Positions 156 through 17,228 of a DNA stretch of 20,559 bases are shown here, piece after piece. Numbering within the stretch: position 1 is the stretch's first letter; every line of letters begins with the position of its first letter. A program made the translations under genes and the position numbers. The notes under the pieces were generated by a model. It worked only from the letters and a program-made list of their open reading frames with translations. It was not told the DNA's origin and searched no databases. Origin of the DNA: a virus; IMG/VR virus record IMGVR_UViG_3300018080_000683, positions 1 to 20,559 of that record; one strand, 5' to 3'.

Positions 156-948
156 TTTCTTTCTCCTTTTTATAATGTTCTGGACGATCATCAAACTCTG
201 GCTGGTTCTGCGTGTAAGATAACAAGAAAAGTAAGCAACAGCCAGCATGAGCCAAATGATTTAATCCAGTTTCGCTGTCATTTGTCTCGCCACGCCACCA
301 TGCCCACATATGTCTCATTAATGCTGCAAACAATCGACTATACGCAATACCCTTTGTCCAATTGTAAGCATCATATTTCTCTGCACCAAACATAAGTACT
401 TGAATGATCGGCTCTATTGATTCGGCGGGAAACAGATCCCAACGGAGCTTATCTTGATCGAATTTCTTGCCTGCTGTTGGTTCCGTGTTTGCTATAAATA
501 CTCCTGGTCGTGCTGATCGTTTTACGGATGCTTGACAGTTAGGGCATTGCCACCCAACGACTGCTTTGTTAACAACGAAGTAGTCATCGCATACGTGACA
601 TAAAACTACTTGTTCTTGTGGTGTATGTACATACACAGAATCTCTTGAATACGTTATATGGAAGAGCTTACCACACCCTTTATCACTTGTTGCGCACATG
701 CATTCTGTTTGACGGTGTTTAACTATATGTATAGCTGAACAAAATGGACATTTTACTTCATGTAGCATTGCAGCCATTCCTTTTGTTTCTAATGCAGTAA
801 GATCACAAATAGCATCTTTTGTTACCTGAATATGGTGGCCGCAAGAGTTACAAATAAATTCCTGTGTAAATTTTGGTTGTATATTTTCGCTATGGCAATT
901 TGGGCACCAAAATGACTTATCGTTAGTTGTTAAGCCTGAATCAGCCAT
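85..948 (-). CDS. Multi-zinc-ribbon protein with dATP/dGTP diphosphohydrolase-like (DUF5664) domain
   Basis: A 287-residue protein if it begins at the ATG at 948, which has GGAGG eight bases upstream; a GTG at 963 would swallow that ribosome site, so I reject it. Residues 1-150 carry CxxC pairs at C15/C18, C33/C36, C67/C70, C117/C120 and C135/C138, plus C83, C85 and C92, so several zinc ribbons. Residues about 161-256 look like the phage DUF5664 domain (KKFDQDKLRWDLFP, FGAEKYDAYNW, SGLNHLAHAG, ending DDRP). Pfam lists a dATP/dGTP diphosphohydrolase N-terminal family of this type, linked in some phages to hydrolysis of purine dNTPs. The tail after residue 256 is low-complexity and charged. Family members are usually little longer than the C-terminal domain, so the long zinc-ribbon front is unusual. 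The start overlaps the preceding small gene by 8 bases. The enzymatic role is inferred from family resemblance only. Confidence 0.72.
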   Translation of the reverse strand: MADSGLTTNDKSFWCPNCHSENIQPKFTQEFICNSCGHHIQVTKDAICDLTALETKGMAAMLHEVKCPFCSAIHIVKHRQTECMCATSDKGCGKLFHITYSRDSVYVHTPQEQVVLCHVCDDYFVVNKAVVGWQCPNCQASVKRSARPGVFIANTEPTAGKKFDQDKLRWDLFPAESIEPIIQVLMFGAEKYDAYNWTKGIAYSRLFAALMRHMWAWWRGETNDSETGLNHLAHAGCCLLFLLSYTQNQPEFDDRPEHYKKEKENVRDKERVDKSKSDTGSVNSTSD

Positions 949-1992: not shown

Positions 1993-2137
1993 ATAAATCC
2001 TCAAAATCAGGGTCCGCATCAAGATCAGGACATAAATGCTGGTCAGCGCACTCGGGGCAATTCGGACCGTAATTGCAGACCGGACACTCTTGAGCATCTA
2101 TATCGTCAAATTCTATTCCACAATCTATACAAATCAT
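1976..2137 (-). CDS. 53-residue zinc-ribbon protein
   Basis: A short frame on the minus strand. The ATG at 2137 overlaps the stop of the exonuclease gene in an ATGA junction, and its own end overlaps the start of the ParB-like gene by 17 bases, so it fits exactly between two certain genes. The peptide begins MICIDCGIEFDD and has cysteines at 3, 6, 18, 21, 27, 30 and 36, arranged as CxxC pairs, followed by a very acidic tail (DLDADPDFEDLYDG). This is typical of a small zinc ribbon. It may act as an adaptor to a partner protein or nucleic acid; nothing shows which. The alternative is non-coding leader for the ParB gene, but the regular cysteine spacing and coupling argue against that. Confidence 0.7.
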   Translation of the reverse strand: MICIDCGIEFDDIDAQECPVCNYGPNCPECADQHLCPDLDADPDFEDLYDGIL

Positions 2138-2700
2138 CCGCCACACAAAGCCTTATATACTTGGGCACACGTAATACAGTCACCTTCTGCCTGATGAGGT
2201 GCTGGATTCACGATGCCTAATGCCTTAGAAACAGAACCTAGAGAAGTTGAACTAAATGGCATTGAAGTGCCATTAAGTCTTGCACGATCATTGATATATT
2301 CAGCTACTCGTTGAGTATCCTTGACACGATAAAAAATGAAGTCTCGTAAATTCAACCCACGAAACGCTGCCGTAATAAAGCTATAGTCGAAGAACCAATT
2401 TTGAGCCAAGGGTTCGATTTTCTGACCTTTTGGTATTGTTCGAGCAAACCAATCTGTAAACATGTTTACAGCGATTTCACGAGTTACAGTTCGTGCCATA
2501 AGCTCATCTAATGTATGACCATTTACAGATAGGGCTTTCTTTTCTGCACGATCAGGAAATTCAGGTTTGACCTCAACAATAAAGGGCTGTACGTGGTCAA
2601 CTGGATCAAACGTGTCAGTTAAGGGGAGAATACACAGATCAACCATTTCATGGTAATATGGTGTTAGCCCCGTTGTTTCACAGTCAATTGCACAAATCAT
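2134..2700 (-). CDS. DEDDh 3'-5' exonuclease (DnaQ-like)
   Basis: 188 residues. All five DEDDh residues can be assigned: D6 and E8 in AIDCETTGL (Exo I), D105 in NWFFDYSFI (Exo II), and H169 and D174 in HQAEGDC (Exo III). Such enzymes remove nucleotides from 3' ends using two metal ions, as in proofreading subunits and recombination nucleases. The start at 2700 overlaps the stop of the 70-residue gene upstream (ATGA). It lies between the SNF2 helicase and a ParB-like gene, which suggests a role in replication or recombination and not in stand-alone RNA decay. A catalytically degenerate relative is encoded at 16530-17228. Confidence 0.9.
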   Translation of the reverse strand: MICAIDCETTGLTPYYHEMVDLCILPLTDTFDPVDHVQPFIVEVKPEFPDRAEKKALSVNGHTLDELMARTVTREIAVNMFTDWFARTIPKGQKIEPLAQNWFFDYSFITAAFRGLNLRDFIFYRVKDTQRVAEYINDRARLNGTSMPFSSTSLGSVSKALGIVNPAPHQAEGDCITCAQVYKALCGG

Positions 2701-2918: not shown

Positions 2919-4937
2919 CTATGCAACATTTTCTAAATATTGTTGCAGTTCACCCATAGTTGCGGCTTGCAGATATTTCTTTTTCCGCAAGTTCTCCAAA
3001 ATATACTCATCTGTTTGTAGATGAATAAGATCAACAATTGTTGCGCCACGATTGGCATCCATACCTGGTCTGTGTATCCTATCCTCAGACTGCATACGAT
3101 CAGTTCCATTGAACGTGTTACTATAATACACGATCATTGATGCAGCAGTTAATGTCAAACTGACACCTGCTGCTCCTGGTTGACCGATAAATGCAATCTT
3201 TTCTGGATGGTCTTTATTTTGGAAGTGCTCTAGGGCAGTATTAGGTCGAAATGCATGGTACTGAGGATGGAAAGTATTATGTTCTGGTGCAGATTCAGTG
3301 TCATGACAAACTACACACTTCTTAGGATCACCGTAGTTGAAACTAACCCATTGACCACGACCATCAATTCGTAATACCTGCCAACCTTCTTTCATACATA
3401 ATCGAGTTACACGGTCAACTGATGCTGCAAATCCTGCGTAAATGACAATACGGCCATAGTTTTCATTCTCTTCTAACAACTCTTTTAAGGCATCATCTTT
3501 TGGACATTTGACTTCTTTTGAGACATTAACGATATTATCTGCTTTCCCTGATCCTGCGCAATTTGGACATTCTACCTTGACCATTTCTTGCATAGGATCA
3601 ACATCTTTTGCTATATCCCCTTGTATGTGTTCATCATGTGGGTTTGTTTCTGTGACTGGTTTGAATGTTTCCCCTGACCCACCACAACGAGGACATACGA
3701 TCTTACCGCGTGCTTCCTTGATATATTGGAAACCGTCACTTAACTCTCTTGTTTTCTCAAGAGCTTGTATAACAGTCGGACTTTTCCGAGTAATTAGTTT
3801 CATCGCTCGTATTGTAGCTGGTGCAGGTTCACACTTAACAAGACGATACACTTTCTCAGGAAGATCATTACAGTCTTTCTTCCATTTAATGTATACAAGA
3901 CCCTTTAAGCGTTGATATAATTTATCAATCTCATTTTCTGATTGAACAAAATTATGTGGGTTCAAACCCATTGCAGTATGTTCTACATGATCGTAAAACT
4001 GACCACAGACTTTGCATTTCTCAGGATTATCAAACCAAGTTACATGTTCTGGATAAGACCCACCTGACATTGTTTGTTTCTTGATAATCAATGCCAATCG
4101 GTATTTCAAGAATGTTGGTGAACTTTCTTTCATGAACCCCGGACAAACAATTTCACACTGCATCCACCAGTTCAACGGATCTTTTGGTGCAGGTGTACCA
4201 GTCATGGCAATAATATAAGGATCAGGATGATCGGCTCTTGCTCCATCTGCTAAGTTCTTTGCCCTTTGTGATCGTTGTGTATTTGAGTTTCTTACCATAT
4301 GAGACTCATCAAATACAATAAAATCAGGCGCTACTCGACCTTCTGGCCAACTGTCTACCATTGATTTCATACGATCATAAGACATGAACTCTGGCATTAT
4401 ACGGGCATTCCAAAATTGAAATTGTGTACGCAAACTACACAAAGCATTCTTAGGACAAACATAAATAGGCCATGTAGGTTTCGCAAGTTCCATGGCTCGA
4501 ATAATCGGGAGTGTCTTTGCCGTGCCCATTTCGGCTGCAAGAATCACACGACGGCGATTCATAATGGTTGTTAACATTTCACGTTGTTGAGAAAAAACAG
4601 GCCAATCTTTATTTGATGCATCCTTACGAATCGCCCATTCCATAAGCGGGTATTCCCGATCATAACGCTCGTAAGGGCTTTCTGCGCCTTCAGTTAAATA
4701 CTGCCACGTAAAAGCATTACGAGCAGTGTCTCCAATTCGCCAGCATTTTTCTTTTGGGTCCCACTTAGACCCTTCCATGGATTTGATCTCGTCTTTTAAC
4801 CATGGATCGTAGGGAAATTGAAGTCGAAGAATATCGTTTGGTTGTGCAGTAACATGTACTGCAAGATAACAATGACCATCTTTAGCACGCTTACCTCTTG
4901 TTGCTCTTAATGAATGTACGCCCTCTTTTATGTACAT
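2919..4937 (-). CDS. SNF2-family helicase with zinc-binding insertions
   Basis: 672 residues. Superfamily 2 motifs are clear: MGTAKT at 137-142 (a GKT variant), DESH at 210-213, MTGTP near 245-249, the second lobe starting RIVIYAGF near 496, and QSEDRIHRPG at 616-625, the SNF2 motif VI. Residues about 35-75 (MEGSKWDPKEKCWRIG) resemble the HARP-type domain seen before SNF2 annealing helicases. Between and within the lobes are cysteine insertions: CKVC 308-311, two DnaJ-like CxxCxGSG modules at 415-422 and 457-464, and CVVC at 541-544. It should use ATP to move along or remodel duplex DNA, perhaps to promote strand annealing with the ERF-like protein. The start overlaps the preceding gene by 10 bases, with GGGAGC upstream. 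The zinc insertions are unusual for this family. Confidence 0.9.
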   Translation of the reverse strand: MYIKEGVHSLRATRGKRAKDGHCYLAVHVTAQPNDILRLQFPYDPWLKDEIKSMEGSKWDPKEKCWRIGDTARNAFTWQYLTEGAESPYERYDREYPLMEWAIRKDASNKDWPVFSQQREMLTTIMNRRRVILAAEMGTAKTLPIIRAMELAKPTWPIYVCPKNALCSLRTQFQFWNARIMPEFMSYDRMKSMVDSWPEGRVAPDFIVFDESHMVRNSNTQRSQRAKNLADGARADHPDPYIIAMTGTPAPKDPLNWWMQCEIVCPGFMKESSPTFLKYRLALIIKKQTMSGGSYPEHVTWFDNPEKCKVCGQFYDHVEHTAMGLNPHNFVQSENEIDKLYQRLKGLVYIKWKKDCNDLPEKVYRLVKCEPAPATIRAMKLITRKSPTVIQALEKTRELSDGFQYIKEARGKIVCPRCGGSGETFKPVTETNPHDEHIQGDIAKDVDPMQEMVKVECPNCAGSGKADNIVNVSKEVKCPKDDALKELLEENENYGRIVIYAGFAASVDRVTRLCMKEGWQVLRIDGRGQWVSFNYGDPKKCVVCHDTESAPEHNTFHPQYHAFRPNTALEHFQNKDHPEKIAFIGQPGAAGVSLTLTAASMIVYYSNTFNGTDRMQSEDRIHRPGMDANRGATIVDLIHLQTDEYILENLRKKKYLQAATMGELQQYLENVA

Positions 4938-6342: not shown

Positions 6343-7389
6343 TTACTTCTGGACTGACGCTGCGGCGGTTTCGGCTGCTGCATCGGCTGCGGTATCGGCT
6401 GTTGCCTGAGCTTTGGCCTTCTTCTCGGCTTCCTTCGCGGCCTTACGTTCTTCTGCCCGTGCTTTCTTCGCGGCTTGATCAGCTTCCCACTGATCCTGTT
6501 CAGCGGCCATGGTATCGGGGTCTTGATGCAGGGTCCATGCAATTGCAAGATCAAACGCTTCTTGCGCACTCATCTTGTCATTGACCAACGCGATCCGCAC
6601 TTCATGTGTATCGTACTCCTTCTTGACCAACGCAGGCGGACGCAGACGCTTGACCGAAACGAATTCCGGGGGCTTTGCAACCTCGCCTTTACGCTTGGCC
6701 TCACGCAAGTCACGTACCCGAGCCTTACACTCTTCCACGAACAGCTTCGGCTCCTTGGACATGGCCTTCTCGACCCATTCCGTCTGCTCTTCTTCGGGGA
6801 GCTTGGCCAACTCGAACGCATTCATGGCCGGAATTGATCCTTCATCGACCAATGTTGCGATCTCGGGCCGTAACGTATGGAGCGAGATCCGCTGATTCAC
6901 CCACTGCGTCGTTACACCCAACTGCTTAGCAATCGACGTAACGGTCAGTAACGGATTCAGGCCCATCATACGACGGATCTGCTGACCATACGCTGCCGGA
7001 CGCATCTTGACTTTGTGCAAGTTCGTCTGGATCTGCGCGGCCATCATTTCCATTTCGTCCATGGAGGCCAGGTTGACGGGGATCTTGGAATACCGGGGAT
7101 CTTTCGTCTTGGCATACAATTCCTTGACAATGGTCAACCGCTGCAAGCCATCGACCAAGAGCAACTTGGAATGATCTTTGTCGAAAGGCCGGACCAAGAT
7201 CGGCGTATGCACGCCACACGAATCCGGTTTGCTGCTGGCCTCGATGCCCGCCGCAAGCCCCTTGTAGTCGTCTGTATCCCGCTGAGCCGGACGTAACGCG
7301 ATCTCACTTACTACGATGCTGTTTACGTCAATTTTGTTTGCACCTTGCAATGCTGCGATATCGACTTTTTCTGCTGATTCTTCTGCCAT
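6343..7389 (-). CDS. ParB-like nuclease-domain protein, GC-rich gene
   Basis: 348 residues; first gene of the minus-strand arm, with AAGGAG upstream of the ATG at 7389. The N-terminal part has a ParB-type fold signature: a stretch of IDVNSIVVSEIALRPAQR, then GVHTPILVRPF and LLLVDGLQRLTIVKEL, where GLQR takes the place of the arginine motif, and QTNLHKVKMRP in place of ENxxR. A helix-turn-helix follows (LTVTSIAKQLGVTTQWVNQR). The last 60 residues are a highly charged, alanine- and lysine-rich helix (AKKARAEERKAAKEAEKKAK) ending in an alanine-rich tail. It probably binds DNA, and could act on the adjacent control region. Sampled lines are 50-60% GC, against 30-42% in most neighbours, suggesting different codon use or recent acquisition. 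Confidence 0.8.
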   Translation of the reverse strand: MAEESAEKVDIAALQGANKIDVNSIVVSEIALRPAQRDTDDYKGLAAGIEASSKPDSCGVHTPILVRPFDKDHSKLLLVDGLQRLTIVKELYAKTKDPRYSKIPVNLASMDEMEMMAAQIQTNLHKVKMRPAAYGQQIRRMMGLNPLLTVTSIAKQLGVTTQWVNQRISLHTLRPEIATLVDEGSIPAMNAFELAKLPEEEQTEWVEKAMSKEPKLFVEECKARVRDLREAKRKGEVAKPPEFVSVKRLRPPALVKKEYDTHEVRIALVNDKMSAQEAFDLAIAWTLHQDPDTMAAEQDQWEADQAAKKARAEERKAAKEAEKKAKAQATADTAADAAAETAAASVQK

Positions 7390-7738: not shown

Positions 7739-10432
7739 ATGAATCCTACAAGGACTGAGGCAATTAAGAATTTTCTTACTGCTCAAGCTCAAAGTATGTA
7801 TCCCCAAATAACTGATCTTGCTGAGTTATATTACTCAGGGCTGGAGGTTCAAGTTAATGTGGCCCAAGATGGTGGGGAAAGAGTAAGCGGTGAGTTCCAT
7901 GGACATAAATGGATCGGGTGGACCGATCATATTCAGATCTGGAAATCATTCAGAATTCCAAACAATGCAAACACTACACCTACTTATGAAGATCGTCCTA
8001 TGACTTTTGATCTTGCGGCCCATGCCGAGGGTATTGGCTTTACTGGCTGGGATTGGTTTCATAGAATCAGTAAGTATGTTGCATTCGATTTTGATTCAAT
8101 CACTAATCATAAAGATGGGCTTACTAACAAAGAACTTGATCGTGTACAAGAATTAGCTATGGATCTTCCATTTGTCACTGTTAGAAAATCAACATCTGGC
8201 GGTGGTATTCATTTATATGTACCTGTTAATAACGTTAGTACTATAAATCACAATGAACATGCTGCATTAGCTCGTGCTATTCTGAGCAAGATGTCAAGTC
8301 TTACAGGCTTCGACTTTAATACCAAAGTTGATACCTGTGGTAGTAACATGTGGGTTTGGCATCGTAAGATGACAGGAACCGATGGCTTAACGATCATCAA
8401 AAAAGGTACGATCTTAAATGAAATACCTCCGAATTGGCAAGATCATTTATCAGTAGTTTCAAGGAAGCGTCACAAGATCATTACAAAAGGTGCAACTACT
8501 GATGAATCAAATGAAATGGAAGAAATTGCCAATAATCGTTCATATGTAGCACTAGATGAAACACATCTCAAGATCATCAAAGCGCTAGAAGAGGCAGGTG
8601 GAACGACGTGGGATTCTGACCATTCAATGCTTACTACCCATACTGCAACTCTTAAACAAGTACACACACAATTAAATTTGCGGGGAGTATTTGAAACACA
8701 ATCAGACACAGAACCCGGTACAGATTGGAATTGTTTTGCATTCCCAAGTGCAAATGGATCTTGGGTTATTCGCCGCTTTACTAAGCATTGCCAGGAAGCA
8801 CCTACTTGGGATATTGATGCATCAGGCTGGACACGCTGCTATTATAACCGAGAAGCAACTTTAGCTATGGCTTCACGAGCACATGGTGGTATTGAGCGTG
8901 AAAAGGGTGGATTTCTTTTCCGAGAAACCTCAGTTGCATTGGAGGCATTGGGTCTACTTGGTGCCAGAGCTAATGTTCCAAACGCTATGTTAGGTCGCGA
9001 AACCATTCTTAAAGAACGACCTGATACTCGAATTATCGTCAAGATCAAACGTGAACCGTCTGATGATGGCGGGGTTATGCTGGCTTGGGAGCCAAGTAAA
9101 GACGATTATTGGACTCAAATTCTTAATGCTCCTAAGAAAGCGCCAGATGAAGTTGAAGTCGCAAGTTTCGATAAAACAATTCGACATCTTATTACTATGG
9201 ATGGTCACGATCATGGTTGGGTTGTTAATATCAATAGTAATTGGGTTACAGAACCATTAATACATGCACGTTACGCATTAACGTCTATGGGCTTTACAAA
9301 AACGGAAATCGATAATATCGTTGGTTCGTCCATTAAGAATTGTTGGACATTGGTAAATCAACCGTTTGAAGCAGAATATCCTGGTGGTAGACAATGGAAT
9401 CGTGATGCTGCTCAACTGACATATACACCAAAAGAAGATGCTGAGAACTTGAATTACCACCATTGGAAACTAATCTTGAATCATTGTGGTACTGATATCA
9501 ATGATGCAGTCAAACAAAACACATGGTGTAAGGCTAATGGTATTGAATCGGGTGCCGACTACTTGAAATGTTGGATAGCATCTATGTTTCAAGAACCGCG
9601 CCAACCTCTACCCTATTTGTTCTTCTATGGTGAACAAAATAGCGGTAAATCAATAATATGGGAGGCTCTTGATCTCCTGATGACCAAAGGTGTCATGAAT
9701 GCAGGATCAGCACTTAAAAACGACTCAGACTTTAATGCCGAGCTTGAAGGTGCAGTCTTATGTGTTGTAGAAGAAATTAACCTCAAACGCAATCGAGAAG
9801 CATATACTAAGATCAAACAATGGGTTACGGCCCTTATGATGTCTATCCATAGGAAACAAAAGACACCATATATGACACATAACGTAACACATTGGATGCA
9901 TTTTGCTAATGACCAAGATGCTTGTCCTGTGTTTCCTGGAGACACAAGGGTTGTAGTTATACATGTACCTCCTTTGAACCCACTCCAATTGATTCCTAAG
10001 AAACAACTAATCGAAGCTCTCAAAAGTGAAGCACAAGATTTCATTACTGAGATCTTATCTTTAGATTTACCCCCATCTAATGATCGTTTGAACATACCAC
10101 CAATCATGACCGAAGCAAAGACCGAACTTCAAATGGCTAATGAAACTGATTTACAAACATTCTTACGTGAAAATTGTTTTTATGTTGAAGGTCATACAAT
10201 CTCCGTTGAAGCCTTTTGTGAAGAGTTTTTCAAAACCTTAGATGCTATGCAAGTCAGCAAATGGTCCAAGATCAAAGTCGGAAAAGAAATGCCTAAGAAT
10301 AAATTCCCTAAAGGCCGATTGAAAGACGGTAAATGGTATTATGGAAATATTAGTTTTAATGATGGTCCAGCAGTCGGTCCCAAGATCACCAAAGATCCAG
10401 AGTCAGATTATTTGCTTAAAGGTGATATATGA
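7739..10432 (+). CDS. Primase-helicase (AEP primase plus D5/SF3-type helicase)
   Basis: 897 residues, with AGGAG five bases before the ATG. The N-terminal part has the archaeo-eukaryotic primase signature: FDFDS with the metal-binding pair D117/D119, and STSGGGIHLYVP (153-158 SGGGIH) as the second motif. The C-terminal part is a superfamily 3-like helicase: Walker A GEQNSGKS at 631-638, acidic Walker B CVVEEIN at 675-681, and a FANDQDACPVFPGDTRVVVI region near 720-740 matching motif C and the arginine finger zone. Such fused proteins make primers and unwind DNA at phage and plasmid origins. It is the first gene of the rightward arm and adjoins the candidate origin. The length fits a two-domain protein; the region between the domains (about 260-590) I cannot assign. 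Confidence 0.88.
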   Translation: MNPTRTEAIKNFLTAQAQSMYPQITDLAELYYSGLEVQVNVAQDGGERVSGEFHGHKWIGWTDHIQIWKSFRIPNNANTTPTYEDRPMTFDLAAHAEGIGFTGWDWFHRISKYVAFDFDSITNHKDGLTNKELDRVQELAMDLPFVTVRKSTSGGGIHLYVPVNNVSTINHNEHAALARAILSKMSSLTGFDFNTKVDTCGSNMWVWHRKMTGTDGLTIIKKGTILNEIPPNWQDHLSVVSRKRHKIITKGATTDESNEMEEIANNRSYVALDETHLKIIKALEEAGGTTWDSDHSMLTTHTATLKQVHTQLNLRGVFETQSDTEPGTDWNCFAFPSANGSWVIRRFTKHCQEAPTWDIDASGWTRCYYNREATLAMASRAHGGIEREKGGFLFRETSVALEALGLLGARANVPNAMLGRETILKERPDTRIIVKIKREPSDDGGVMLAWEPSKDDYWTQILNAPKKAPDEVEVASFDKTIRHLITMDGHDHGWVVNINSNWVTEPLIHARYALTSMGFTKTEIDNIVGSSIKNCWTLVNQPFEAEYPGGRQWNRDAAQLTYTPKEDAENLNYHHWKLILNHCGTDINDAVKQNTWCKANGIESGADYLKCWIASMFQEPRQPLPYLFFYGEQNSGKSIIWEALDLLMTKGVMNAGSALKNDSDFNAELEGAVLCVVEEINLKRNREAYTKIKQWVTALMMSIHRKQKTPYMTHNVTHWMHFANDQDACPVFPGDTRVVVIHVPPLNPLQLIPKKQLIEALKSEAQDFITEILSLDLPPSNDRLNIPPIMTEAKTELQMANETDLQTFLRENCFYVEGHTISVEAFCEEFFKTLDAMQVSKWSKIKVGKEMPKNKFPKGRLKDGKWYYGNISFNDGPAVGPKITKDPESDYLLKGDI

Positions 10433-10632
10433 AAATACATTCCTTACAAGAAGCTATAACTAAATTAACAGCATCCGATAAAGAACGTCTTACTTATGCT
10501 TTTGAAAATGGTTTTTCACAAGTAGCATTTTTAGATGACGGTTACTTTGTTGCCGTCCACAGTAATGTCCCTGCTATTGAAGCAAATGGCGCATGGGCAT
10601 TTGGTCAAACACCGCAGAAAGGACAACAATGA
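10429..10632 (+). CDS. Unknown small protein, 67 residues
   Basis: It starts in an ATGA overlap with the primase-helicase stop and ends in another ATGA overlap with the next gene, so it is translationally coupled on both sides. The sequence has a helical first half (LQEAITKLTASDKERLTYAF) and a beta-like second half (SQVAFLDDGYFVAVHSN). No cysteines, signal or membrane helix. No family recognised. Confidence 0.75.
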   Translation: MKIHSLQEAITKLTASDKERLTYAFENGFSQVAFLDDGYFVAVHSNVPAIEANGAWAFGQTPQKGQQ

Positions 10633-10799
10633 AGGTCATAGCAACAAAACATGATGTGACTTTGACTCCTACAAACCCCAAAGATATCAAATTCTGTGAT
10701 ACAATTATGCAAGATCATGACTGTGTTACAGCAGCATTTCGATCTGATACAGAAGGTATGTATCTTAAGATCACACCTATTAATCCTGAGGATCTCTAA
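10629..10799 (+). CDS. Unknown small protein, paralogue of next gene
   Basis: 56 residues from the ATG at 10629, which has AAAGGA upstream and overlaps the previous stop; an upstream in-frame start at 10593 would lie inside the previous gene and is less likely. The protein contains VTLTPTNPKDIKFCDTIMQ and ends ITPINPEDL. The first part of the next protein aligns with it along most of its length (V, PT, K, C-x-TI-x-Q, V and TP-x-N shared), so the pair looks like a tandem duplication. Function unknown. Confidence 0.72.
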   Translation: MKVIATKHDVTLTPTNPKDIKFCDTIMQDHDCVTAAFRSDTEGMYLKITPINPEDL

Positions 10800-11209
10800 T
10801 GTTAATCAGAAAAGTCACATCAAACGAAGTTCAAATAAGACCAACTTCCGAAAAAGAAGAAGCGACTTGTAGAACTATACTCCAAGGAAAAACGCGTGTC
10901 GCAATCCAACGAACCAGATCAAACTCATTACGGTGTACACCTACTAATATTCTTGTATTTGAACATGATGAACTCAAGGTTATAGAGTACGATGGCTACG
11001 TGCAAGTTCGTGCTTTAACAAAAGATGCAGAAGAGTTACTGTATAACATCTTAATGCTTGGCGGTTTTGCAGTAATTGAGAAAATTAAAACAGAGGATGG
11101 GTCCTTTCTACGATCAGTTGGTACAAACCCTGAGACTATGAACCCTTGGAAATTTGAGGCTGACTTACCTCGTGCAGACATGACACGCGGGGACGACGAA
11201 AAGGAATGA
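10799..11209 (+). CDS. Unknown protein with duplicated N-terminal module
   Basis: 136 residues, starting on the last base of the previous stop codon (TAATG). Residues 1-50 repeat the preceding small protein's pattern (VQIRPTSEKEEATCRTILQ ... TPTN). Residues 50-136 are additional, with a strand-rich stretch (NILVFEHDELKVIEYDGYVQ) and a hydrophobic helix (ELLYNILMLGGFAVIEKI), ending in a charged tail. No membrane protein or enzyme motif is evident. Co-translated with its paralogue. Confidence 0.75.
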   Translation: MLIRKVTSNEVQIRPTSEKEEATCRTILQGKTRVAIQRTRSNSLRCTPTNILVFEHDELKVIEYDGYVQVRALTKDAEELLYNILMLGGFAVIEKIKTEDGSFLRSVGTNPETMNPWKFEADLPRADMTRGDDEKE

Positions 11210-15041: not shown

Positions 15042-15309
15042 CTTAGCAGAATATCGTTGTGGCCATACTGATCTTAGGATACAACATAGTTCACCTTTTA
15101 TTGGCGTCAGGGCATCATATGGTTCTATAACTATATGTTGTCAAACTTGTCATCGCTTAGTTTCTATGTATTATGGTGATCCAGGTTGGAATGAAACTCG
15201 TGTATTTAATATGGTATTACGTATGTTTCAAGGTTCACAAAAACGAATTATTAGATCAAAATGGCCAAAGCACTTAACTGAATTTGATCCAGGAGATCGG
15301 AATGTCTAA
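15034..15309 (+). CDS. Small cysteine/histidine-rich protein
   Basis: 91 residues. It contains YRCGHTDLRIQH, then ITICCQTCHRLV, i.e. C-x-H and CxxCH elements that could bind one zinc ion, and a basic C-terminal half (FQGSQKRIIRSKWPKHL). It overlaps both neighbours by eight bases (ATG inside the previous end; next ATG inside its own end). No known family; a nucleic-acid- or protein-binding adaptor is possible. Confidence 0.72.
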   Translation: MANLAEYRCGHTDLRIQHSSPFIGVRASYGSITICCQTCHRLVSMYYGDPGWNETRVFNMVLRMFQGSQKRIIRSKWPKHLTEFDPGDRNV

Positions 15310-16267
15310 TCACTGTTGTAGGTGTGGGACAAAGGCAGTTGTAATTTGTTCAAGATGTGAGCGTGGGCCTTTTTGTATAGAATGTCTCGCTATACATGAA
15401 ATCAATTGCCAAGGTCCAGTCGAACCAATTGATCCTAGCTGGTTACAAATAGGATCACATCGAAAAGCAATTCGAGCGCCACTAAATTACCCTGGAAGTA
15501 AAGCCAAATCCTTGAAACATATACTTCCAGTCTTACCGTATCGTGGTGCTTACATTGAGCCTTTTGGAGGATCAGCTGCTGTTCTCTTGGCCCGACAACC
15601 TGAGAAACTAGAAGTATATAATGACCGCTATGGTGGCATTTGTTGTTTCTACCGAGTCATACGTGATCGTTGTGATGAATTCATGGCACGACTTGATCTC
15701 ACTATACATTCCAGAGAAGAGTTCGAGTGGTCCAAAGCAAGTTGGCAAGATTGTGCCGATGAAGTCGAACGTGCTGCTCGATGGTACTATTCTATGTATT
15801 ACTCGTTCAGCGGAAAAGGAGAATTCTTTGGCCGTAATATCAAACCGCAAAACCCTTATGCTGGGAAACTACGGAACAGAATCCCTGAACTTCCTATCAT
15901 ACATGAACGCTTACGACAAGTACAGATCGAAAACCTTGACTGGCGTGACATTCTCAAGGATTATGATCAGCCAAATGCAGTTTTCTATCTTGACCCTCCC
16001 TATTATGAAGCCCGAGACCCTCGTTATCGTTCCACCATGTCCAATTCCGATCATCGAGAACTCTTGGATCGAATCTTTGAATTATCAGGCTTTGTTGCTC
16101 TCTCAGGTTATACGAATGAACTCTATGACAGTTACACCTGGGATGATCGTGTCACATGGTCCCACCGTGACGTTATGAGTGCTATGGCATTTACCGAGGA
16201 AAACAATCGACAAAAGACTACCAGAGCAATGGTAGAAGAGGTATTATGGGTAAAGGAAGCGGATTAG
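15302..16267 (+). CDS. Dam-family adenine-N6 DNA methyltransferase with N-terminal zinc finger
   Basis: 321 residues from the ATG at 15302 (GGAG seven bases upstream); an upstream TTG at 15284 includes that ribosome site and is rejected. Residues 60-92 are APLNYPGSKAKSLKHILPVL ... YIEPFGGSAAVLL: the NYPGSK opening and EPFGGSAAVL SAM-binding motif of D12-class (Dam/DpnM type) enzymes. DPPY is at 231-234. The first 38 residues carry HCCRCG, CSRC, CIEC and H-x5-C, a cross-brace or B-box-like zinc finger that Dam enzymes normally lack. It should methylate adenine in a short motif, perhaps GATC, which is frequent in this sequence. Roles could be protection from host restriction or regulation. The last 22 bases overlap the next gene. 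Confidence 0.88.
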   Translation: MSNHCCRCGTKAVVICSRCERGPFCIECLAIHEINCQGPVEPIDPSWLQIGSHRKAIRAPLNYPGSKAKSLKHILPVLPYRGAYIEPFGGSAAVLLARQPEKLEVYNDRYGGICCFYRVIRDRCDEFMARLDLTIHSREEFEWSKASWQDCADEVERAARWYYSMYYSFSGKGEFFGRNIKPQNPYAGKLRNRIPELPIIHERLRQVQIENLDWRDILKDYDQPNAVFYLDPPYYEARDPRYRSTMSNSDHRELLDRIFELSGFVALSGYTNELYDSYTWDDRVTWSHRDVMSAMAFTEENNRQKTTRAMVEEVLWVKEAD

Positions 16268-16533
16268 GTAATTACCAAAACGAGCGAGGTCAAACGACAG
16301 CAGTTGACTCTACTCGACTAATTTGGTATGCCCCTTGTCAACATTGGACAGACAATTGGGATCTATTAGATCATACAAAAGAAGGTATCCCTATTTGTCC
16401 AATATGTAGACACGTAGGTTTTCAAATTAAAGCCTATCAATGGTTTTCTGATATTGATAAGTACGAAGCCAATGGACATCCTGGTTATATGCAACAGGTT
16501 CTCATCCTAGAACTCAAGGAAAATGATCTATGA
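16246..16533 (+). CDS. Small zinc-binding protein, unknown
   Basis: 95 residues; GAGG four bases before the ATG at 16246, inside the end of the methyltransferase gene. It has CQHW near residue 31 and ICPICRHVGF near 49-58, so a C-x-H plus CxxCxH arrangement likely to bind zinc, between polar ends. It ends in an ATGA overlap with the DnaQ-like gene. No family recognised; its coupling to both neighbours suggests a shared process. Confidence 0.72.
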   Translation: MGKGSGLGNYQNERGQTTAVDSTRLIWYAPCQHWTDNWDLLDHTKEGIPICPICRHVGFQIKAYQWFSDIDKYEANGHPGYMQQVLILELKENDL

Positions 16534-17228
16534 AACACCTTAACCATCATATCGTTTGTGTTGTTGACTCGTGTACATCTGGTCCACGACCCGGCTACAA
16601 TGACATTATCGAGCTTTGTGTTATGCCTGTAACTAATGGCTTTCAACCAGATAAGCAATTCTTACCTTTCCATATGTACATGCACCCTAAGCGTCCAGAG
16701 AATTTTGACTGGTCACATCTAGGTAAATATGACGCAGCATACACACGGAAACACTTAAAAGACTCACTTGATCCTTGGTACTGCCAGGAACTCTTTGAAA
16801 ATTGGTATACCAAACTTGGTCTTCGTGATCGTAAGCACATACAACCCCTTGCATACAATTGGTCTAAGCAAGCTGCATTCTTACAAGATTGGTTCGGTTA
16901 TGATGACGATAATCAAACTTTTATGAGTGACTTCTTTGATCTTTTGCATCATCGAGATCTTATTGATTTGGCTCTTTACATGAATGATCTTGCTTGGTGT
17001 AACCAAGAACCATACCCCATACAGAAACAAAACTTAGCTTACATATGCAATAAATTGAATATAGTTCAACGAACTCCCCAAACCTGTATGAGTCATTGTT
17101 TTGATATCTTATCTTGTTGGCGAGAACTCGCTTACATGAAATTACCGACAGGCTTTGAATTAAATCTCCGCCTGCCGGTGGATATTGACTATTCGGCTTA
17201 TCAGGAATCTGAAGATTCAGATGATTGA
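16530..17228 (+). CDS. DnaQ-like protein with degenerate catalytic site
   Basis: 232 residues. It aligns along its length with the exonuclease at 2134-2700: VVDSCTSGP against AIDCETTGL, IIELCVMPVT against MVDLCILPLT, IQPLAYNWSKQAAFL against IEPLAQNWFFDYSFI, and PQTCMSHCFDILSCW against PHQAEGDCITCAQVY. By this alignment only D13 survives; the partner residues E, D, H and D become C15, Q114, Q184 and H189. The fold is likely kept but 3'-5' exonuclease activity is unlikely. It could be a binding or regulatory protein. The C-terminus is longer and ends in an acidic tail. Its 3' end overlaps, in antisense, the end of the minus-strand gene by 28 bases. Not broken: frame and length are intact, so selection has kept it. 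Confidence 0.72.
   Translation: MKHLNHHIVCVVDSCTSGPRPGYNDIIELCVMPVTNGFQPDKQFLPFHMYMHPKRPENFDWSHLGKYDAAYTRKHLKDSLDPWYCQELFENWYTKLGLRDRKHIQPLAYNWSKQAAFLQDWFGYDDDNQTFMSDFFDLLHHRDLIDLALYMNDLAWCNQEPYPIQKQNLAYICNKLNIVQRTPQTCMSHCFDILSCWRELAYMKLPTGFELNLRLPVDIDYSAYQESEDSDD

Follow-up and report, generated by a model that had tools for sequence, protein, structure and literature searches.

Catalytically dead binding proteins with a DnaQ fold are already known from animals. Maelstrom of Bombyx has a DEDD fold that lost the catalytic residues; it shows no activity but does bind single-stranded RNA (PMC4408791). The PXL module of PML-1, an exonuclease-like domain, has no nuclease activity and binds nucleic acid in single-stranded form (PMC12934764). 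In fungal Ssd1/Dis3L2, the active site was lost repeatedly and an older, nuclease-independent role has been proposed (PMC8097288). The phage protein studied here, P0001, resembles each of these to some extent. Like the MAEL domain of metazoan Maelstrom, it has a predicted DEDD-type fold from which the catalytic residues were lost, but Maelstrom is eukaryotic and carries a structural ECHC zinc site, and P0001 has no Pfam MAEL match at an E-value of 1. PXL is part of a large eukaryotic protein whose binding was demonstrated, whereas for P0001 we infer it. The likeness to Ssd1/Dis3L2 lies in the repeated loss of the active site, and the differences in the family (RNase II) and the eukaryotic origin. 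Our best reading is that P0001 may be a recurring phage counterpart of such eukaryotic proteins (Maelstrom, Ssd1). The literature searched yielded no description of a phage pseudo-exonuclease family of this type, which is not proof of absence.

P0001 is encoded in the window, i.e., the whole stretch of 20,559 nucleotides of viral DNA that was analysed (Table 1). Its ORF of 232 codons runs from ATG to TGA without interruption, the coding signal at the gene is confined to its own frame, and the protein is cysteine-rich throughout. BLASTP aligns it with P0002 (E-value 2e-20, 24% identity, 201 columns), and its residues 1-204 score 161 bits against a profile made from 53 active homologues, from which both window proteins were excluded to avoid circularity. 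Only D13 is retained among the five catalytic residues (1/5), the others being replaced by C15 (from E), Q115 (from D), Q184 (from H), and H189 (from D); the D-x-E motif thus reads D13-S-C15, the second Asp is Q115, and H-x4-D has become Q184 and H189. A misalignment of these positions is ruled out by the profile alignment, which is free of gaps at all three motifs. The same alignment is the basis on which the metal site appears to have been lost and P0001 is predicted, from its residues, to be catalytically dead. The protein lacks the motifs of active members (D-x-E, D, H-x4-D) and belongs to the family by full-length profile homology and by its locus. The gene is tightly packed with its neighbours: P0004 overlaps the Dam-like gene by 22 nt and the start of P0001 by ATGA, and an AAGGA sequence precedes this start. 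The preliminary description, made from the letters alone, had claimed homology to the active product of 2134-2700, replacement of four of the five catalytic residues, and an intact frame coupled to its neighbours, all of which hold.

Table 1. Features of the window and catalytic positions of the dead copies in related phages.
Feature	Coordinates	Strand	Remarks
P0002, intact DEDDh exonuclease of the P0001 family	2134..2700	-	Between ParB-like gene and helicase; without N-terminal HLN motif
SNF2-type helicase	2919..4937	-	Leftward replication module; P0002 just downstream of it
Primase/polymerase-type gene	7739..10432	+	Head of gene run; anchor for finding related phages
Dam-like N6-adenine methyltransferase	15284..16267	+	MethyltransfD12, PHROG 56; upstream of P0001 in the same gene run
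P0004, 95 aa, CxxC pair	16246..16533	+	Between Dam and P0001; no Pfam or PHROG match
P0001, predicted pseudo-exonuclease (dead copy of the window)	16530..17228	+	DnaQ fold (predicted); D-C-Q-Q-H at the DEDDh positions; KHLN motif retained near the N-terminus
C-terminal tail of P0001	residues ~205-232		Acidic, low confidence in model
Dead copy, L086			A-Q-M-M-Q
Dead copy, L087			T-T-L-D-E
Dead copy, L121/L122 (one virus recorded twice)			A-R-K-P-E
Dead copy, L072			T-R-A-R-D
Dead copy, L061			A-K-F-D-R
Dead copy, L051			D-F-K-K-F

The family of P0001 could be reached only through its alignment with P0002 and through the primase. P0001 has no match to PF00929 (RNase_T) at an E-value of 1, below the curated cut-off of Pfam, and no meaningful match among the Pfam and PHROG families; there was no match with tblastn against 50,697 phage records, nor in IMG/VR with single-protein patterns drawn from P0001. 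P0002 matches RNase_T (E-value 2e-10, 41.9 bits for a cut-off of 24) and PHROG 192, the DNA polymerase exonuclease subunit (E-value 1.5e-18), and scores 182 bits against the active profile. With the primase of the window and the L003 homologue as queries, we collected 80 IMG/VR loci of related phages. Their highly conserved layout has genes for a ParB-like protein, helicase, SSB-like protein, and ParB leftwards; rightwards follow the primase, in many cases a Dam-like gene, and a single exonuclease. A member of the family lies downstream of the primase in 62 loci, the window included (counting a single member for each phage and leaving P0002 aside), and the Dam-like gene is its frequent neighbour. 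The phage DEDDh exonucleases of L003, L041, and L019 (PF00929) are like P0001 in their end-to-end homology, their place downstream of the primase, and their N-terminal motif, but they retain DEDDh and pass the Pfam cut-off, whereas P0001 does neither. A scan of genome contigs gave two distant loci only. One side observation is that L123 (13375-14049), with D changed to E at the third catalytic position, lies on an Anaerolinea MAG contig, a possible host hint. Another is that the primase homologue of L003 (3353-7081) has an insertion of ~350 residues resembling an intein.

The five catalytic residues are present in 55 of the 62 phages, L123 with its D to E change among them, and four or five are gone in the other seven, the window included. 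Homologues that retain DEDDh, one element of the finding that the preliminary description had set against its own reading, do therefore exist; the other element, a lone degraded outlier, is not what we see, since seven phages have dead copies and P0001 groups with two of them. When the catalytic columns are removed, the maximum-likelihood tree joins P0001 with L086 and L087 (99/72), L061 adjoining (91/70); L121 falls with the active L019, L003, and L041 (95/84), and L072 and L051 are placed together elsewhere (88/95). The exonuclease genes of L121 and L122 are identical. Mapping the dead and active states on this tree requires three changes. Two or three independent catalytic losses are likely but not proven, because long branches lead to several of the dead rows and the AU test falls just short of rejecting one origin for all of them (p 0.063). 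The L087 locus has a second, shorter dead exonuclease copy (10603-11046) directly downstream of the first.

P0001 occupies the place shared across related phages, and for this reason it probably stands at the ancestral locus, with the active P0002 as the displaced copy. The preliminary description had called P0001 a paralogue of the active gene; the homology stands, and synteny reverses the implied direction. Among the loci examined, P0002 is the only family member in the slot between the ParB-like gene and the helicase. Its nearest BLAST relatives are active members of other lineages (L039 and L010, 38%), its position in the tree is weakly supported, and a sister relation with P0001 is not rejected (AU p 0.27). 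Both a duplication within the lineage and an acquisition are compatible with the trees. Distant second DEDDh proteins with intact residues were seen in L030 (2075-2713), in the same ParB-helicase slot as P0002, and in L045 (11517-12107).

Structure prediction of both proteins, which had been proposed as a check, gave a DnaQ fold for each. AlphaFold2 models made with 59 aligned family members have a pLDDT of 96.8 for P0002 and 88.8 for P0001, only the C-terminal tail of the latter being poor. Re-examination of the Foldseek matches in the PDB gave, against E. coli DNA polymerase III epsilon (DnaQ), a Z of 18.2 for P0001 (rmsd 2.7, 168 aligned) and 19.3 for P0002 (rmsd 2.2, 162 aligned), and P0001 matches RNase T with a Z of 18.0. 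P0001 would thus have a DnaQ/RNase T-like fold that is intact in the prediction. It shares this fold with the N-terminal domain of epsilon, which is, unlike P0001, an active proofreader with its catalytic residues, and which differs also in context, no DnaE-type polymerase having been detected in 37 records of the phage group.

The dead copies seem to have been maintained by selection. When the seven dead proteins are pooled, 3 of 35 catalytic positions are kept vs 96 of 147 non-catalytic ones with a conservation of 90% or more among the active members (Fisher p 4e-10), a contrast whose informative half is the survival of the other positions, since the set was picked by catalytic loss, and whose seven rows are perhaps not seven independent losses. 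P0001 by itself keeps 1/5 and 15/21 of these positions, respectively, and under a looser form of the test the contrast is suggestive without being significant (p 0.15). In a neutral simulation started from the P0001 gene, the probability that the 232 codons stay free of stops is 0.027 at 0.1 substitutions per site and ~0.002 at 0.2. The branch of P0001, a single sequence without a close relative, spans 1.7 amino-acid changes per column, and L086 and L087, which are dead sisters, share 43% identity. Part of each branch may predate the inactivation, so that setting the simulation against branch length supports selection strongly without measuring it. Neutral decay would probably have disrupted the P0001 frame. 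Since the site is predicted to be dead while the predicted fold, the frame, and the non-catalytic conserved residues were maintained, P0001 is likely to be under selection for a non-catalytic function, as the preliminary description had supposed, and its proposal gains from the fold, the frame, the pooled conservation, and the simulation alike.

Could cutting or proofreading be supplied by other proteins in these phages? The window phage is the only dead-copy case that also has an active family member, P0002. No other RNase_T exonuclease was detected in five dead-copy contigs of 42, 71, 32, 50, and 73 kb, which are possibly incomplete, nor in a sixth, a little informative fragment of 10 kb, the Pfam model being one that misses two records with intact DEDDh (L057/L058). 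The family profile detected no active second copy in the dead-copy records searched either (L122 left out). In most of the related phages there is a gene for a family A DNA polymerase (PolA), and the DTE, NxxFD, and YxxxD motifs of its N-terminal domain are kept in all 12 records read, five of which are from dead-copy phages; the Pfam DEDDy model matches these proteins weakly. The window sequence stops before any PolA gene, and no DnaE-type polymerase was found in 37 records of the phage group. We rejected the idea that the loss of DnaQ was offset by altered proofreading in PolA, since its exonuclease motifs are intact in these 12 records whether the phage has a dead or an active copy. PolA retains its own proofreading motifs, and therefore proofreading need not depend on the P0001 family. 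Elsewhere among the dead-copy phages, cutting seems to have been abandoned.

An H-[LWFY]-[NH] motif just ahead of the first strand, outside the catalytic site, is present in 47 of 56 active members and in 6/7 dead copies, the seventh having HLD. P0002 begins right at the first strand and lacks the motif. This distribution is a correlation, and it fits a split of roles in which P0002 would cut and P0001 would keep the motif. Net charge was considered as a sign of nucleic-acid binding and rejected: taken together, the dead copies show lower acidity (p 0.016), but much of this difference is due to the loss of catalytic acids, and P0001 is net acidic. The acidity of P0001 and its acidic tail do not favour a general binder of nucleic acids and are a reason to consider a protein partner as well. 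The suggestion that P0001 binds nucleic acid ends is thus plausible by precedent and finds no backing in its charge. A neighbour gene exclusive to dead-copy phages was sought and not found.

We regard it as moderately probable that P0001 is a pseudo-exonuclease which persists because it binds rather than cuts, a confidence that concerns the class and is much lower for any named ligand. The ancestral enzyme at the replication-operon locus would have had a second role independent of cutting, namely docking, by its DnaQ fold and its N-terminal H-L/W-N motif, on nucleic acid or on a partner in replication or methylation. P0001 would then have lost the metal-binding residues and with them cutting, the protein being retained, and in several lineages selection would now act mainly on the non-cutting role; in the window phage, cutting could come from the displaced, motif-less P0002. 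Alternatively, P0001 might be a regulatory or structural partner of P0002, steering or restraining it in a mixed dimer. Solved relatives such as RNase T and oligoribonuclease function as dimers, both genes are intact in the window genome, and the sister relation allowed by the AU test would suit such a pair, but P0002 is on the opposite strand in a different gene run. The preliminary description had named a regulatory partner for the real exonuclease among its possibilities; as a general account, partnering fails: five of the six other dead-copy contigs (those of 32-73 kb, possibly incomplete) have no other detected RNase_T protein. For the window itself partnering is unlikely.

It is even less likely that P0001 serves to mislead or block a host nuclease, or else a defence system triggered by phage exonucleases or DNA ends. 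Repeated catalytic loss with a retained fold and an acidic tail would suit a mimic, and the Dam neighbour hints at a context of genome protection, yet Dam adjoins active copies equally and no defence gene, partner, or host is known. A changed enzyme, in which D13, C15, C186, and H189 form a new thiol/His metal or catalytic site, has a lower probability still. C15 and H189 do stand at former metal-ligand positions, with C186 between these and the former His and D13 retained; however, P0001 is rich in cysteine overall and no comparable set occurs in the other dead copies (A-Q-M-M-Q, T-T-L-D-E, A-R-K-P-E, etc.). Least probable of all is a slowly decaying remnant without function, redundant beside the active copy elsewhere in the window genome, given the intact and coupled ORF, its coding signal at high divergence, the neutral simulation, and the recurrence of dead copies in phages with no detected second copy.

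Returning to P0001 as a non-catalytic binding protein, the recurrent disarming suggests that the family may have a second, non-cutting job. It is conceivable, though on balance doubtful, that a widespread phage DEDDh family also serves replication or genome protection in a hidden way that does not involve cutting, that this is the role under lasting selection, with repeated loss of the site as the result, and that here the roles were split between a relocated active, motif-less copy and a dead, motif-bearing copy. A phage family in which the site was lost repeatedly and the protein kept in its operon would be a natural experiment, in which the comparison of dead and active copies reveals the residues of the non-cutting role. 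It would also call for caution in annotation, as the fold alone is insufficient to name such phage genes exonuclease or proofreading subunit.

Some observations concern the rest of the window. A scan with promoter and terminator consensus sequences did no better than on shuffles. The ParB-like gene at 6343-7389 has a third-position GC of 0.63, compared with 0.19-0.42 across the remaining window genes that were measured. Ahead of its methyltransferase domain, the Dam-like protein carries an N-terminal extension rich in cysteine (~residues 11-43), with a weak B-box-like match (E-value 0.66).
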